From Erysipelotrichaceae bacterium (lineage in GTDB: Bacteria > Bacillota_I > Bacilli_A > RFN20 > CAG-826): a stretch of 64,000 nucleotides of DNA. Below are positions 30,288-46,305 of the stretch, one piece after another. The stretch spans positions 1-64,000 of the forward strand of contig SVBB01000001.1 of assembly GCA_015059105.1 (NCBI GenBank). Reading direction: 5' to 3'. Every line of letters starts with the position of its first letter. The first letter of the stretch is position 1. The notes under the pieces were generated by a model that made no database searches, was not told where the DNA came from, and was given only the letters and a program-made list of their open reading frames with translations. A program made the translations under genes and the position numbers.

Positions 30288-30342
30288 AGAACTATGAACA
30301 ATAATTTATTAAAATATCTTATAGATATTGAGGTTGCTATTT

Positions 30343-32073
30343 ATGAACATTAAGAAGCTTAGCTTATTAGTTGCTGTTTTGGCGTTATCTTCCTGTGGAG
30401 CGAATAATCCTTCTTCTAGTGATACTTCTAAAGTAGAAGTTAGTTCTAGCGAAGTCGTTTCTTCTAGCAAAGAGGAAGTTAGTTCTAGCGAAGTCGTTTC
30501 TTCTAGCAAAGAGGAAGTTAGTTCTAGCGAAGTTATCTCTTCTAGCCAAGAACAAGAAACGATGAAACATGATAACGTTACTACAAGCATTTATCCTTTA
30601 AAAAAGGATGATAAAACTTTGGTCAATGGTCGAGTTGAAATAAAACCAGTCTTCAACGGTGAAGCTCAAAAATTCACAGCCTCTTTCGAAGGTAGTAATA
30701 TTCGTATCGATGAAATCGGCGGGAAGAAATATATCACTGCGTTAAAAGCGGGCACGACGACAAAAGTGACCTTGAATTCCACAGGTGGATTATCATGTAC
30801 TTTTGACGTGAAAGTCTCTTCCTCAAATTATAAAGCAACAGGTGCGAGAGACGCTAAATTTGCTTCTAGTGAGGGTTGGTTTACTTCTACGAAAGTAAAT
30901 GAAATCTCCAACATGGGAAAAGACTTCATGAATGGCTTTGATATCTCAACTTGCAAAGCGCTTTATCAAAACGGAACAAAGTTTTTTAACAAATCAAACG
31001 TTGAACAATCCTTATTCTATATATTAAAAGATAATGGTGTTAACTGGATTAGACTTAAATTATGGGTTGATCCATATACCGCAGAGGGAGTTTCTTATGG
31101 TGGTGGTGAATCCGATTTACCAAACACTTTATGGATGGCTTATGAAGCGAAAAAAGCGGGATTAAATCTATTATTAGATTTCCATTATTCTGATTACTGG
31201 ACTCATCCTGGCCAACAAATTCTTCCAAAGAGTTGGAATAGTTGTAGTAGCAAAGAAGCTTTGTGTGCTAAGATTAAGTCTTATACAACTGAAACATTAA
31301 CAACATTTAAGAATAGTGGTTGTTTACCAGATATGGTGCAACTTGGTAACGAAATATCTTCTGGTATTTACCTACAAAAATTCACAGGTAGCAGTGATAC
31401 CTTAGATAACTATGGCCAACCAACTTATTTAACTGGTAAAACTAATTATTCTTACGGCACGAAAGATGCTTCTCAATATGTCGACTATATCAAAGCTGCC
31501 AGTGAAGGTGTTAATGCCGTCAGCAGCTCTATTAAGAAAGTGATTCACTGGGCTAAGGGCAGTCAGATAAGCGCTTCGATTATTAATAATTTCTTCAATA
31601 ATATGCCAAGCTCTTATTATGATTATGCAGCGATTTCTTTCTATCCATATTACTGTTTTGATTCGATGAATGCCGCTAAGACAATCATCAATGGGTTAAA
31701 CTTATCTAAGCCATGGTTCGTTGCTGAAACAGCATATCCATTCTCTGGTAGTTCATATGTATATGAAAACAGCAAAGATGTCACTAATTTCACAGTCTCA
31801 GATTGGACAACTTCTGGTATTACTAATATCAAATCTGAATATGCATTTACTCCTGCCGGACAAGCGAAATTAATTCACGATTTAACTTCCGCGGTAGTGG
31901 ACAAAGGTGGTAAAGGAATCTTCTACTGGGAAGCAGCGTGGGTTCCAAATCTCAATGTTGGTTGGGCTGGTAAAGGCTCTCTTAACACATACGGCAATCA
32001 AACCTTCTTCTCTTATGACGGTAAGGCAACTGCAAATCTCGATTTGTTTCAACAAATGTCTCCACATATCTAG
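30343..32073 (+). CDS. GH53 endo-beta-1,4-galactanase, surface lipoprotein
   Basis: A 576-aa secreted enzyme. The signal KKLSLLVAVLALSSC is a lipobox at Cys17. Residues 20-75 are a Ser/Glu/Val repeat linker. About 85-165 form an Ig-like (BIG2-type) domain (ITALKAGTTTKVTLNSTGGL), and the GH53 barrel spans about 190-570. Acid/base Glu337 (QLGNEIS) and nucleophile Glu462 (VAETAYPF) are present, with LLLDFHYSDYWTHPGQQILP. ATG 30343 follows GAGGTTG. It would make galacto-oligosaccharides outside, to be finished by the cytoplasmic GH53. No transporter gene lies in the locus. Confidence 0.92.
   Translation: MNIKKLSLLVAVLALSSCGANNPSSSDTSKVEVSSSEVVSSSKEEVSSSEVVSSSKEEVSSSEVISSSQEQETMKHDNVTTSIYPLKKDDKTLVNGRVEIKPVFNGEAQKFTASFEGSNIRIDEIGGKKYITALKAGTTTKVTLNSTGGLSCTFDVKVSSSNYKATGARDAKFASSEGWFTSTKVNEISNMGKDFMNGFDISTCKALYQNGTKFFNKSNVEQSLFYILKDNGVNWIRLKLWVDPYTAEGVSYGGGESDLPNTLWMAYEAKKAGLNLLLDFHYSDYWTHPGQQILPKSWNSCSSKEALCAKIKSYTTETLTTFKNSGCLPDMVQLGNEISSGIYLQKFTGSSDTLDNYGQPTYLTGKTNYSYGTKDASQYVDYIKAASEGVNAVSSSIKKVIHWAKGSQISASIINNFFNNMPSSYYDYAAISFYPYYCFDSMNAAKTIINGLNLSKPWFVAETAYPFSGSSYVYENSKDVTNFTVSDWTTSGITNIKSEYAFTPAGQAKLIHDLTSAVVDKGGKGIFYWEAAWVPNLNVGWAGKGSLNTYGNQTFFSYDGKATANLDLFQQMSPHI
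30436..30552 (+). repeat. 39-bp in-frame tandem repeat in the GH53 linker
   Basis: A 39-bp unit encoding EVSSSEVVSSSKE occurs twice exactly (30436-30474, 30475-30513) and a third time with a few changes (30514-30552). It forms the flexible surface linker and could vary in copy number by slippage. Confidence 0.85.
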
Positions 32074-32082
32074 CAATAATGT

Positions 32083-32090
32083 GGTATAAT
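32083..32090 (+). promoter_or_regulatory. extended -10 promoter of the structured RNA
   Basis: TG at 32082-32083 region then G and TATAAT (32085-32090): an extended -10 (TGG-TATAAT). No good -35 is seen at 16-18 nt. Predicted transcription start is near 32097, right at the start of the structured RNA. Confidence 0.6.
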
Positions 32091-32096
32091 TATAAG

Positions 32097-32223
32097 GCTA
32101 AAGGTGGAGAATCAGTGCGCGACCACGACGCACCGAAAGGTGGGTACGGTGATCCGGGATGTTAACTGCCCCGGTTAGCGAATCGAAAGATTGGAAATGC
32201 TTCGGACGCGGGGCATTTTTTCT
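32097..32223 (+). ncRNA. unidentified structured RNA of about 130 nt upstream of nifJ
   Basis: A GC-rich island in AT-rich surroundings, with its own extended -10 and a final terminator: TGCCCCG (32167-32173) pairs with CGGGGCA (32209-32215) before TTTTTT. Two hairpins are capped by GAAA loops: CACC-GAAA-GGTG (32131-32142) and AATC-GAAA-GATT (32181-32192). GTGCG (32115-32119) can alternatively pair with CGCAC (32129-32133), so two folds compete. No ORF with a ribosome site fits. It does not match the SRP, 6S, tmRNA, RNase P, T-box or common riboswitch cores that I can recall. nifJ has its own promoter further down, so a free-standing RNA is favoured over a riboswitch. Confidence 0.65.
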
Positions 32224-32317: not shown

Positions 32318-35300
32318 ATGGCTGAAATTAAGAAGACAATGCTTTCTGTTGATGGTAACACAGCAGCAGCAATTGAATCTTACAATTTTATTGAAGTGGC
32401 TGGTATTTACCCAATCACTCCATCTTCCCCAATGGCAGAACAAATCGATATTGATGCCTCAAAGGGAAAAAAGAACTACTTTGGTAGTGTAGTCAAAGTT
32501 AGTGAAATGCAATCTGAAGCGGGTGCTTCTGGTGCGGTTCACGGTGTTGCTCAAGCAGGTGCTTTAGCGGCGACATATACTGCTAGCCAAGGTTTGTTAT
32601 TAATGATTCCAAACATCTATAAATGGTGTGGTGAATTACTTCCAATCGTCTTGCACGTCTCTGCACGTAGCTTAGCGACTCGTAGCTTATCTATCTTTGG
32701 TGACCACCAAGATATTTACGCGATTAGACAAACTGGTATCACCATGTTATGTTCACATTCCGTTCAAGAAATTGCTGACTTAACTCCAATGGCGCACTTA
32801 CTCGCTCTTGATGCGGAAACTCCAGTCTGTCACTTCTTCGATGGATTCAGAACTTCTCATGAAATTCAAAATGTCGAATTCGTCGATGATGAAGAATGGA
32901 AGAAGATCCTCCCATGGGATAAAGTTAAAAAATTCAAAGAAAGAGCACTCAACCCACATACTCACCCAGTGACTCGTGGTGGTGCAGAAAACGATGATAT
33001 CTATTTCCAAGGTAGAGAAGCACAAAATGCTCATTATGCTAAGGTCTTAGATGTCGCCGAAAAATACTTCAAAGAAGTTTCACGTTTAACAGGCAGAGAA
33101 TATGCCCCATTCACATATTATGGTGCCCCTGATGCTGAAAGAGTGATCGTGGCGATGGGTTCTGTCACTGAAACTGCCAAAGAAGTTATCGATGAACTCA
33201 AAGGCGAAAAGATTGGTTTAGTGAAAGTTCACTTATATAGACCATTCTCTGCAAAGCACTTATTAGCGGTTTTACCAAAGAGCGTGAAGAAGATTGCCGT
33301 CTTAGATAGAACTAAAGAAATGGGCGCTCCAGGCGAACCATTATACTTAGATGTCGCTTCCGTTATCAAAGAAGCGGGCTTAGATATTGAAGTTATCGGT
33401 GGTAGATATGGTTTATCTTCTAAAGATACTCAACCAAAAGATGTCAAAGCAGTCTTTGATTTCTTAAAAGGCAAGACTTGGCAAGGCTTCACTGTTGGTA
33501 TCAATGATGATGTCACTCATTTATCAATTCCAGTGGACAATGATTTCCATGTTCACGCTGACTACACATCCTGCTTATTCTATGGTTTAGGTTCCGATGG
33601 TACTGTCTCTGCGAACAAATCATCCATTAAGATTATCGGTGATGCTACTGGTCAATATGCTCAAGCATATTTCGCCTATGACTCCCGTAAAGCTGGTGGT
33701 TTAACTAGATCTCACTTAAGATTTGGTAAAACTCCAATCAGATCAACATATTATGTCCAAAACGCTGACTTCGTGTCCTGCTCCTTGGATTCCTATTTAT
33801 ATAAATATGATATGATCCGTAACTTAAAGGTTGGCGGTACATTCTTACTCAACACAGATATGAGCGATGAAGAATTAGAGAAGAATATGCCAAATAGAGT
33901 TAAATATCAATTAGCGACTAAAGGTGCGAAATTCTTCGTTATCGACGCCAACAAATTAGCGGCTTCCTTAGGTATGGGTAGACATACAAATACTACTCTC
34001 CAAGCCTCATTCTTCTATTTAAATCAACAAATCATGCCATACGCTGATGCACAAAAATGGATGAAGAAGTTCGCTGAAAAATCCTATGCCAAAAAAGGAC
34101 AAGATGTCGTTGAGATGAACTGGAAAGCCATCGACGCTGGTGCGGAAGGCTTAAGAGAAGTCAAAGTTAAAGAAGAATGGAAGAATCTCTCTCCAAACTT
34201 CGAACACAAATTAACTGGTGATGATTACTTCGATAGCTATGTTGCTATTATGGGTAACGGTATGGGTGATGATTTACCAGTTAGCAAATTCACTGAATTC
34301 GAATTACTCGATGGCACAATGCAAAACGATATCACTTTCAAAGAAAAGAGAAATATCGCGGACAAAGTCCCATTATGGCATAAAGAAAATTGTATTCAAT
34401 GTAACCAATGTGCCTTCGTCTGTCCACACGCGACTTTAAGACCATTCTTACTTAACGATGAAGAATTAGCCAACGCTCCTGAACTCGTTAAAGAAGGTGT
34501 TGTTAACGCGGTTGGACCAACTGTTGCGGGCTTAAAATATCGCTTACAAGTCTCTCCAATGAACTGTGTTGGTTGTGGCTTATGTGTCAGCGAATGTATG
34601 GCTAATAAGAATCCAAAGAACGTTGCCGAAGGTAAAAAGGCCCTCGAAATGGTGGAAGCGAGATCTCAAGCTGCCCAAGAAGAAGCGGCCAACTACTTAT
34701 TCAAACAAGTCTCTTATAAGAGTGATAAATTCAGCACAGATACTGTTAAGGGTGTCGGCTTCTTAATGCCTTACATGGAAGTCTCCGGTGCTTGTGCGGG
34801 CTGTGGTGAAACTCCATATTACCGTTTAGTTTCTCAATTATTCGGAAAAGATATGCTCGTTGCTAACGCGACTGGTTGTAGCTCCATCTATTCTGGTTCT
34901 ACTCCACTCACTCCATTCTGCACTGATAAAAACGGTGAAGGTGTGGCATGGGCTAACTCCTTATTCGAAGATAACGCTGAATTCGGTTATGGTATGAGAG
35001 TGGCAACTGACCACAAACTCAAGAGAATCGTTGAAATTCTCTCCGAAGCCAAAGTGAGAGGTGTTGAAGAAGAATTATCATCCTGCATCGATGAATACTT
35101 CGCCAACATCAAAAATAGAAACGCAGTTACTCCAATAGTTGAGAAACTCGTGAAGCTCGTTGAAGCTAGCAAAGATGAAGGTGTTAAAGAAGTCTTAGAT
35201 TACAAGGCTGACTTAAGAGATAAATCCGTTTGGATCGTCGGTGGTGACGGTTGGGGCTATGATATCGGTTACGGTGGATTAGACCACGTTATCGCAAACG

Positions 35301-35872
35301 AAGAAGACGTCAATATCTTACTCTTAGATACTGAAGTTTATTCCAATACTGGTGGGCAATCCTCCAAATCTTCTCAAACTGGTTCTATCGCGAAGTTCAC
35401 TGCTTCCGGTAAGAAGACAGCGAAGAAGAACTTAGCCTTAATCGCGATGAGCTATGGCAATGTCTATGTTGCTCAAATCGCTTTAGGTGCGAACCCAATG
35501 AAGGCCATCAAAGCCTTAAAAGAAGCCGAATCCTATGATGGACCAAGCTTAATCATCTGTTACGCTCCATGCGCGAACCACGGTATCAAAGGTGGTCTTG
35601 CCAACTCTATGAAACAAGAAAAACTCGCTGTTGAATGCGGATACTTCCCAATCTTCAGATACGACCCACGTCTTGCTAAAGAAGGCAAACCATGCTTACA
35701 AATCGATGGACCAGTCGATCCAGATTATTCTAAATTCCGCGACTTCGTGATGACTGAGACTAGATTCTCTCAATTACCACGTGTCAACCCAGCTGAAGCT
35801 GAAGAATTATTGACTAAATCTGAAAACTACGCGAAAGATCGTTGGAACAGAATTAAAAAATACGGTTTATAA
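32318..35872 (+). CDS. nifJ: pyruvate:ferredoxin (flavodoxin) oxidoreductase, single-chain
   Basis: An 1184-aa enzyme turning pyruvate and CoA into acetyl-CoA and CO2 with reduction of ferredoxin. Domain order is as in known PFORs: pyrimidine-binding (YPITPSSPMAEQIDID), CoA-binding region near 250-410, the gamma-like domain, and two [4Fe-4S] motifs at about 691-702 (CIQCNQCAFVCPH) and 748-760 (CVGCGLCVSECM). The TPP-binding C-terminal domain follows (SGACAGCGETPYYRL, GDGWGYDIGYGGLDH, EVYSNTGGQSSK). Codon use is biased toward a small set, as in the rpo/rpl genes, so it is likely highly expressed. It marks anaerobic, oxygen-sensitive fermentation. Confidence 0.98.
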   Translation: MAEIKKTMLSVDGNTAAAIESYNFIEVAGIYPITPSSPMAEQIDIDASKGKKNYFGSVVKVSEMQSEAGASGAVHGVAQAGALAATYTASQGLLLMIPNIYKWCGELLPIVLHVSARSLATRSLSIFGDHQDIYAIRQTGITMLCSHSVQEIADLTPMAHLLALDAETPVCHFFDGFRTSHEIQNVEFVDDEEWKKILPWDKVKKFKERALNPHTHPVTRGGAENDDIYFQGREAQNAHYAKVLDVAEKYFKEVSRLTGREYAPFTYYGAPDAERVIVAMGSVTETAKEVIDELKGEKIGLVKVHLYRPFSAKHLLAVLPKSVKKIAVLDRTKEMGAPGEPLYLDVASVIKEAGLDIEVIGGRYGLSSKDTQPKDVKAVFDFLKGKTWQGFTVGINDDVTHLSIPVDNDFHVHADYTSCLFYGLGSDGTVSANKSSIKIIGDATGQYAQAYFAYDSRKAGGLTRSHLRFGKTPIRSTYYVQNADFVSCSLDSYLYKYDMIRNLKVGGTFLLNTDMSDEELEKNMPNRVKYQLATKGAKFFVIDANKLAASLGMGRHTNTTLQASFFYLNQQIMPYADAQKWMKKFAEKSYAKKGQDVVEMNWKAIDAGAEGLREVKVKEEWKNLSPNFEHKLTGDDYFDSYVAIMGNGMGDDLPVSKFTEFELLDGTMQNDITFKEKRNIADKVPLWHKENCIQCNQCAFVCPHATLRPFLLNDEELANAPELVKEGVVNAVGPTVAGLKYRLQVSPMNCVGCGLCVSECMANKNPKNVAEGKKALEMVEARSQAAQEEAANYLFKQVSYKSDKFSTDTVKGVGFLMPYMEVSGACAGCGETPYYRLVSQLFGKDMLVANATGCSSIYSGSTPLTPFCTDKNGEGVAWANSLFEDNAEFGYGMRVATDHKLKRIVEILSEAKVRGVEEELSSCIDEYFANIKNRNAVTPIVEKLVKLVEASKDEGVKEVLDYKADLRDKSVWIVGGDGWGYDIGYGGLDHVIANEEDVNILLLDTEVYSNTGGQSSKSSQTGSIAKFTASGKKTAKKNLALIAMSYGNVYVAQIALGANPMKAIKALKEAESYDGPSLIICYAPCANHGIKGGLANSMKQEKLAVECGYFPIFRYDPRLAKEGKPCLQIDGPVDPDYSKFRDFVMTETRFSQLPRVNPAEAEELLTKSENYAKDRWNRIKKYGL

Positions 35873-46165: not shown

Positions 46166-46173
46166 TCAAACAA

Positions 46174-46237
46174 GACTCTAATATACCGAAGACAGTAACG
46201 GAGGTGGACTCTTAATAATGTTACCGAGGCTCTAGAT
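46174..46237 (+). promoter_or_regulatory. L10 ribosomal leader (autoregulatory)
   Basis: The leader of rplJL has the L10-binding kink-turn pattern of Firmicutes: CCGAAGACAGTAACGGAGGT followed after a loop by AATGTTACCGAGGCTCTAG, with AGTAAC pairing GTTAC and outer AGACTCT/AGGCTCT-type arms. L10(L12)4 binding here would repress rplJL translation. Confidence 0.8.
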
Positions 46238-46305
46238 ATAATCTAATCCCCAAGTATATTGGACCCTTCAAACAAAAATTTAAGAAAAAGGAGGTTAGAG
46301 AACAC

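Follow-up and report, generated by a model that had tools for sequence, protein, structure and literature searches.

What is the structured RNA encoded just ahead of nifJ in an Erysipelotrichaceae bacterium, and what might it do? The question arises from a 64,000-nt stretch of DNA, here called the window (assembly GCA_015059105.1, contig SVBB01000001.1, positions 1 to 64,000 of the forward strand), in which a preliminary description had placed an RNA at 32085-32223, thought to be a new regulatory RNA of this lineage or a riboswitch for a short transcript. The element is a real, free-standing, terminated structured RNA, a stand-alone RNA gene of ~120 nt. Rather than a lineage-specific novelty, comparative analysis makes it a diverged offshoot of skipping-rope RNA (RF02924), a class whose usual neighbour is a gene for a BECR-type ribonuclease (RNase). 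It is probably an orphan RNA antitoxin, the class being partnered with small BECR-fold RNases in what is most likely a type III-like module.

RNA structure and covariation

Copies of the window RNA were found by blastn in related genomes, and a covariance model built from its relatives (R1) matches the window at 32087-32187 with 101.1 bits. Across the host-family set of 224 genomes, R1 gave 143 matches in 75 genomes, with at most 7 per genome and often in tandem. The window copy is made up of the following parts:

32061-32066, + strand: weak -35-like hexamer TCCACA, seen in the sequence
32082-32090, + strand: extended -10 promoter TGGTATAAT, seen in the sequence, with TATAAT at 32085-32090
32097-32179, + strand: conserved RNA core of ~83 nt, P1-P2-P3-P4 with a pseudoknot, a divergent skipping-rope fold (R1 and RF02924 matches)
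32097-32101 with 32175-32179, + strand: P1, GCTAA with TTAGC (alignment of relatives)
32104-32107 with 32123-32126, + strand: P2, GTGG with CCAC, nearly invariant in relatives
32113-32116 with 32165-32168, + strand: pseudoknot, CAGT in the P2 loop with ACTG in the P4 loop (covariation)
32131-32142, + strand: P3 hairpin CACC-GAAA-GGTG, conserved (folding and alignment of relatives)
32154-32174, + strand: P4 hairpin CCGGG...CCCGG, its loop bearing the 3' half of the pseudoknot (folding and alignment of relatives)
32181-32192, + strand: linker hairpin AATC-GAAA-GATT, not conserved in relatives
32193-32220, + strand: intrinsic terminator, 12 pairs and a U-run
32167-32173 with 32209-32215, + strand: possible alternative stem TGCCCCG/CGGGGCA, in this copy alone

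Folded as a single sequence, the window RNA reaches -42.5 kcal/mol with a z score of -1.47, marginally better than chance, in part because the pseudoknot is not counted; it is the comparison of homologous sequences, not folding energy, that is decisive for the proposed structure. In a manual structure of 11 homologues (P1-P4 and the pseudoknot), 97.8% of cells are paired and two-sided changes occur in 13 of 25 pairs. Among 48 short-form relatives, pairing is 97.5%, against 27-46% in slid controls, and two-sided changes are found in 21 of 25 pairs. These include every pair of P1 (97.9% paired; 6/6) and of the pseudoknot (97.9% paired; 4/4), and none of 5000 reshufflings of loops between copies reached the observed complementarity of the P2 and P4 loops.

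Transcription signals recur as well. The motif TGnTAnAAT, with a background of ~0.0003 per position, stands at the position of the window promoter before P1 in 31 of 40 host-family copies linked to the putative toxin gene described below and in 18 of 46 solo copies, and a terminator-like stem and T-run follow most host-family copies. Several features first proposed from the sequence are present in the window copy, namely the extended -10 promoter, which with the weak -35 agrees with the consensus at 10 of 12 positions, the GC-richness (in the core), both GAAA-capped hairpins (P3 and the linker hairpin), and the strong terminator. The RNA also stands free ahead of nifJ, which starts beyond the terminator at 32318.

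A partner protein in the host family

A protein of ~125 amino acids recurs directly upstream of copies of the family RNA. Searching the 224 host-family genomes with this protein gave 74 matches, and 67 of these are followed immediately by the RNA, in the same orientation and mostly at a distance of 24-37 nt; six of the seven unpaired matches are weak. From the other side, the protein lies within 1 kb of 78 of the 143 family RNAs, so that the linkage of RNA and RNase-like gene in the host family runs both ways. Solo RNAs are common and solo proteins nearly absent, as would be expected of a protein that does harm when its RNA is missing.

The protein is probably a BECR-like RNase, judged by its AlphaFold2 model, which is a confident one (predicted local distance difference test, pLDDT, 87.5). 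In Foldseek its structure neighbours among viruses comprise MuF-C, minor capsid and 'nuclease' proteins of phages, with probabilities of up to 1.0, and several of the top ones are common to this protein and to the model of PBECR3, itself of low confidence (pLDDT 66); the protein thus shares viral structure neighbours with PBECR3 RNases (PF18812) and phage MuF-C (PF18819). The predicted fold carries a His in the N-terminal helix and a Thr/Ser in the last strand, as in the BECR active site (PMC5512222). Neither PADLOC nor NCBIfam yielded an informative match, and a scan of genome contigs with a single family toxin returned the query's own metagenome-assembled genome only.

Relationship to skipping-rope RNA

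The RF02924 model matches the window at 32094-32182 with 21.7 bits (E 0.014 in 501 bp), under its gathering cut-off of 36.7 bits, and the best copy of the whole branch reaches 31.3 bits (G126). No Rfam family scores the window RNA at or over its gathering threshold, in agreement with its earlier description as outside the recognized RNAs, and membership of a known Rfam family was rejected. In the reverse direction, R1 finds true RF02924 RNAs in Macrococcus (L180; 28.2 bits, E 4.9e-7) and in G353 (L082; 26.0 bits, E 3e-6) and scores a third (L177) at 16.6 bits; it gave no match to the RF02924 RNAs L013 and L014, nor to most others tried.

The two groups of RNAs have in common the helix order P1-P4, the junctions (J1/2 of 2 nt and J4/1 of 0 nt in 48/48 family sequences) and the pseudoknot between the P2 and P4 loops. 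For RF02924 itself, 52 of 5000 shuffles gave loop-loop complementarity as high, and covariation support for its pseudoknot is reported in Rfam 14 (PMC7779021). Genes for BECR-type RNases adjoin both groups, and each model detects some members of the other. The window branch differs in its 15-nt P2 loop with a conserved CGACCACG(A/G)CGC segment, in its consensus sequence and in having R1 subtypes in which P2 or P4 holds a large insertion. Because of the mutual model matches and the shared helix order, junctions and pseudoknot, the window RNA is best described as a divergent relative of the skipping-rope class, not as an Rfam member.

In one locus (L075:1996-3304; G264:C18), a single toxin gene is surrounded within 1.3 kb by four skipping-rope-like RNAs of differing subtypes, an arrangement that suggests multiple specificities. 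A pattern search of IMG/VR returned four contigs, with a weak R1 match (15 bits) in one of them (L190) and RF02924 in none; the branch of the window RNA is therefore hardly seen in IMG/VR.

Skipping-rope RNAs beside PBECR3 genes

True skipping-rope RNAs are also linked to RNase genes. A set of 247 genomes of the host's class holds 10 RF02924 matches, and for five of them a PBECR3 gene, whole or as a fragment, lies no more than ~600 nt away. Counted from the protein side, the RNA stands beside 5 of 6 small stand-alone PBECR3 open reading frames (ORFs) but beside none of the 3 giant polyvalent proteins, and two further weak PBECR3 matches under the cut-off are without RNA. Chance adjacency is negligible in these genomes because the matches are so rare in each.

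In Streptococcus suis phages, the proteins that carry the annotation 'spbA' belong to PBECR3, and an RF02924 RNA (70.3 bits) follows 19 nt downstream in all three testable records, a fourth fetched record ending at the 'spbA' gene. On plasmids, an RF02924 RNA lies shortly downstream of PBECR3 in 11/11 loci fetched, from four phyla (Priestia, Sporosarcina, Brevibacillus, Macrococcus, two Fusobacterium, Treponema, Bacillus velezensis, B. subtilis pTA1060, Planococcus and Azospirillum), ten of them over the cut-off and one at 30.9 bits. The RNA is convergent to the gene in four of these plasmid loci and is therefore a separate transcript.

The spbA locus of B. thuringiensis pHT1030 is connected with segregational stability in the title of Lereclus & Arantes (1992), as cited in PMC13001229. 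A stability locus of that kind would fit a toxin-antitoxin role; the S. suis phage gene is compared with it by name, the pHT1030 SpbA sequence being absent from the collections searched. The literature searched gave no earlier nuclease link for skipping-rope RNA; its original description (10.1093/nar/gkx699) and the 1992 paper lay outside that search.

Some of these loci hold further features. An HTH-like (helix-turn-helix) or hypothetical gene ends just 5' of PBECR3 on Fusobacterium, Bacillus and Planococcus plasmids (L181:1242-1484, L182:1242-1484, L185:548-1465, L186:548-1465, L187:562-1464) and is a possible third component of the module. On pTA1060 and the B. velezensis plasmid, an RF01691 Bacillus-plasmid RNA lies ~100 nt from the convergent skipping-rope RNA (L185:2077-2132, L186:2077-2132). 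One true skipping-rope RNA (L013:1501-1585) sits between portal-like and scaffold-like genes of a phage structural module (names inferred from sequence), and in the MuF-type protein beside the L087 RNA Pfam shows no BECR domain.

A probable antitoxin without its toxin

Type III toxin-antitoxin systems have a ToxN-like toxin inhibited directly by an RNA of short tandem repeats encoded upstream. The present modules would be expected to share the direct inhibition, by analogy. They differ in the toxin, which is PBECR3 or BECR-like and not of the ToxN/AbiQ kind, in the RNA, a four-helix junction of ~85 nt in 1-4 units of ~85-150 nt, and in its place, mostly downstream of the gene or convergent to it. 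A structured RNA directly beside a small RNase gene is found in the family and in the class, not at the solo window copy; in type III systems (ToxIN, CptIN, TenpIN), too, a pseudoknotted RNA adjoins a small RNase gene, on plasmids, phages and chromosomes (PMC8860590).

In the proposed mechanism, the RNA would be made in excess from its own promoter, fold into four helices with the loop-loop pseudoknot, bind the BECR RNase and keep it inactive. Loss of the module would then free the more stable toxin, and plasmids and prophages that carry the module would not easily be lost. The window orphan would have been kept after loss of its toxin or have moved without it, and it could still neutralize related toxins in trans: its own genome holds one complete toxin-RNA pair on another contig (G000:C11) and one further RNA (C16). 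No toxin match or remnant was found within 1.5 kb of the window RNA, including the gap to the upstream ORF. The copy is probably functional as an orphan antitoxin, since promoter, pseudoknot and terminator are kept. Comparable states occur elsewhere: at one syntenic chromosomal locus of genus g23, toxin and RNA are present in L058 and the RNA only in L059, L061 and L067, and in L143 and L164 an intact RNA is accompanied by a weak toxin remnant at the usual toxin position.

Several points weigh against an antitoxin. About 45% of the family RNAs (65/143), that of the window included, and 5 of the 10 RF02924 RNAs in class genomes are without a nearby RNase, and some of these may have other roles. 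The window copy is both under the RF02924 cut-off and toxin-less. The arrangement departs from that of classical type III loci, as the RNA, present in 1-4 copies, mostly follows the toxin gene. No Pfam family matches the partner protein significantly (the best are MuF_C, E 0.02, and DUF4258, E 0.044, with scores under the cut-offs for both PBECR3 and MuF-C), its best relevant match in the PDB is weak (BrnT, E 0.14), and hhalign of family-toxin and PBECR3 alignments, both small, gave no support; the BECR assignment thus draws on the predicted fold and active-site pattern, because sequence and PDB support is weak. The evidence is wholly computational, with toxicity of the protein and its binding and neutralization by the RNA as predictions.

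If the antitoxin function is true, a new combination of RNA antitoxin and toxin fold would be added beyond ToxN-type systems; it could also account for the stable maintenance of certain plasmids and prophages and for the persistence of toxin-less copies like that of the window. Skipping-rope RNA gains a testable candidate function from its near-exclusive pairing with small BECR RNases.

Alternative explanations

Linkage proves a partnership and not its sign, and solo RNAs could act otherwise, so the RNA could instead be an activator, sensor or substrate of the nuclease in a defence or regulatory ribonucleoprotein. This is unlikely given the near absence of solo proteins beside many solo RNAs, and given that the RNA is equipped with a promoter of its own and in some loci runs convergent to the gene. 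A still smaller chance is given to an independent trans-acting, base-pairing small RNA (sRNA) that is linked to the nuclease gene only by joint transport on mobile elements. Its many solo copies and the filing of RF02924 in Rfam as 'Gene; sRNA', without a function, would suit such an RNA, but the tight, fixed spacing to the family RNase-like gene and the recurrence beside PBECR3 in four phyla would not, and the loops covary for an internal pseudoknot instead of being left free for targets.

An antisense (type I) antitoxin acting on toxin mRNA is suggested by the adjoining toxin gene and was rejected as very improbable, as there is no excess complementarity to the translation start of its own toxin (-21.8 kcal/mol, against -21.5 +/- 0.55 kcal/mol for the starts of other toxins), 57 of 200 shuffles are as good, and the RNA is usually co-directional and downstream, without overlap. 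A riboswitch or attenuator for nifJ or for a short transcript was likewise rejected and has almost no probability left: the core ends ~140 nt before nifJ and the competing stem TGCCCCG/CGGGGCA is indeed possible with the terminator in the window copy, but among 86 distinct copies that of the window is the only one able to form a stem like it, so that it holds as a sequence feature and fails as a conserved switch, and other copies precede unrelated genes.

A tRNA-like layout

The helix spacing of RF02924 (8 bp, 2 nt, 5 bp, 1 nt, 5 bp, variable, 5 bp, 0 nt), together with the kiss of the second and fourth hairpin loops, is the layout of the tRNA cloverleaf. Because some BECR RNases cut tRNA (PMC5512222), a tRNA decoy is an attractive extension of the antitoxin function, and it is speculative that the RNA mimics tRNA and blocks a tRNA-cutting enzyme. 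P1 would be acceptor-like and stacked on a T-arm-like P4, P2 would be D-arm-like after its 2-nt linker, P3 anticodon-arm-like, and the kiss would resemble that of D-loop and T-loop. In the window branch, the P2 loop (15 nt) and the P2-P3 junction (4 nt) are longer. ARAGORN found no tRNA in the loci scanned, and RF00005 has no match at the window. The broader proposal, that tRNA-shaped antitoxins occupy the active sites of tRNA-cutting BECR enzymes and form a toxin-antitoxin type that extends over at least four phyla, whether on chromosomes, plasmids or phages, orphans serving as anti-addiction or anti-phage immunity, is a tentative one that is rather doubtful at present.

Neighbouring genes and other RNAs

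The window RNA is flanked by two genes:

30328-32073, + strand: upstream neighbour, a putative GH53-like endo-galactanase lipoprotein ORF (name inferred from sequence)
32318-35872, + strand: downstream neighbour nifJ (pyruvate:ferredoxin oxidoreductase)

The connection to nifJ drawn in the preliminary description was not sustained: nifJ is an incidental neighbour, because the other host-family loci examined closely adjoin unrelated genes. The DNA flanking the RNA had no match in the genus's one other genome, and the window DNA had none among phage records. In two host-family genomes (L026:2054-2745, L043:2066-2757), the skipping-rope-like RNA is followed, a few hundred nt 3', by a tandem array of three cow-rumen-1 RNAs (RF02946). 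Within the window, a ribosomal protein L10 leader (RF00557) occurs at 46168-46292 (+), with a score just over its cut-off.
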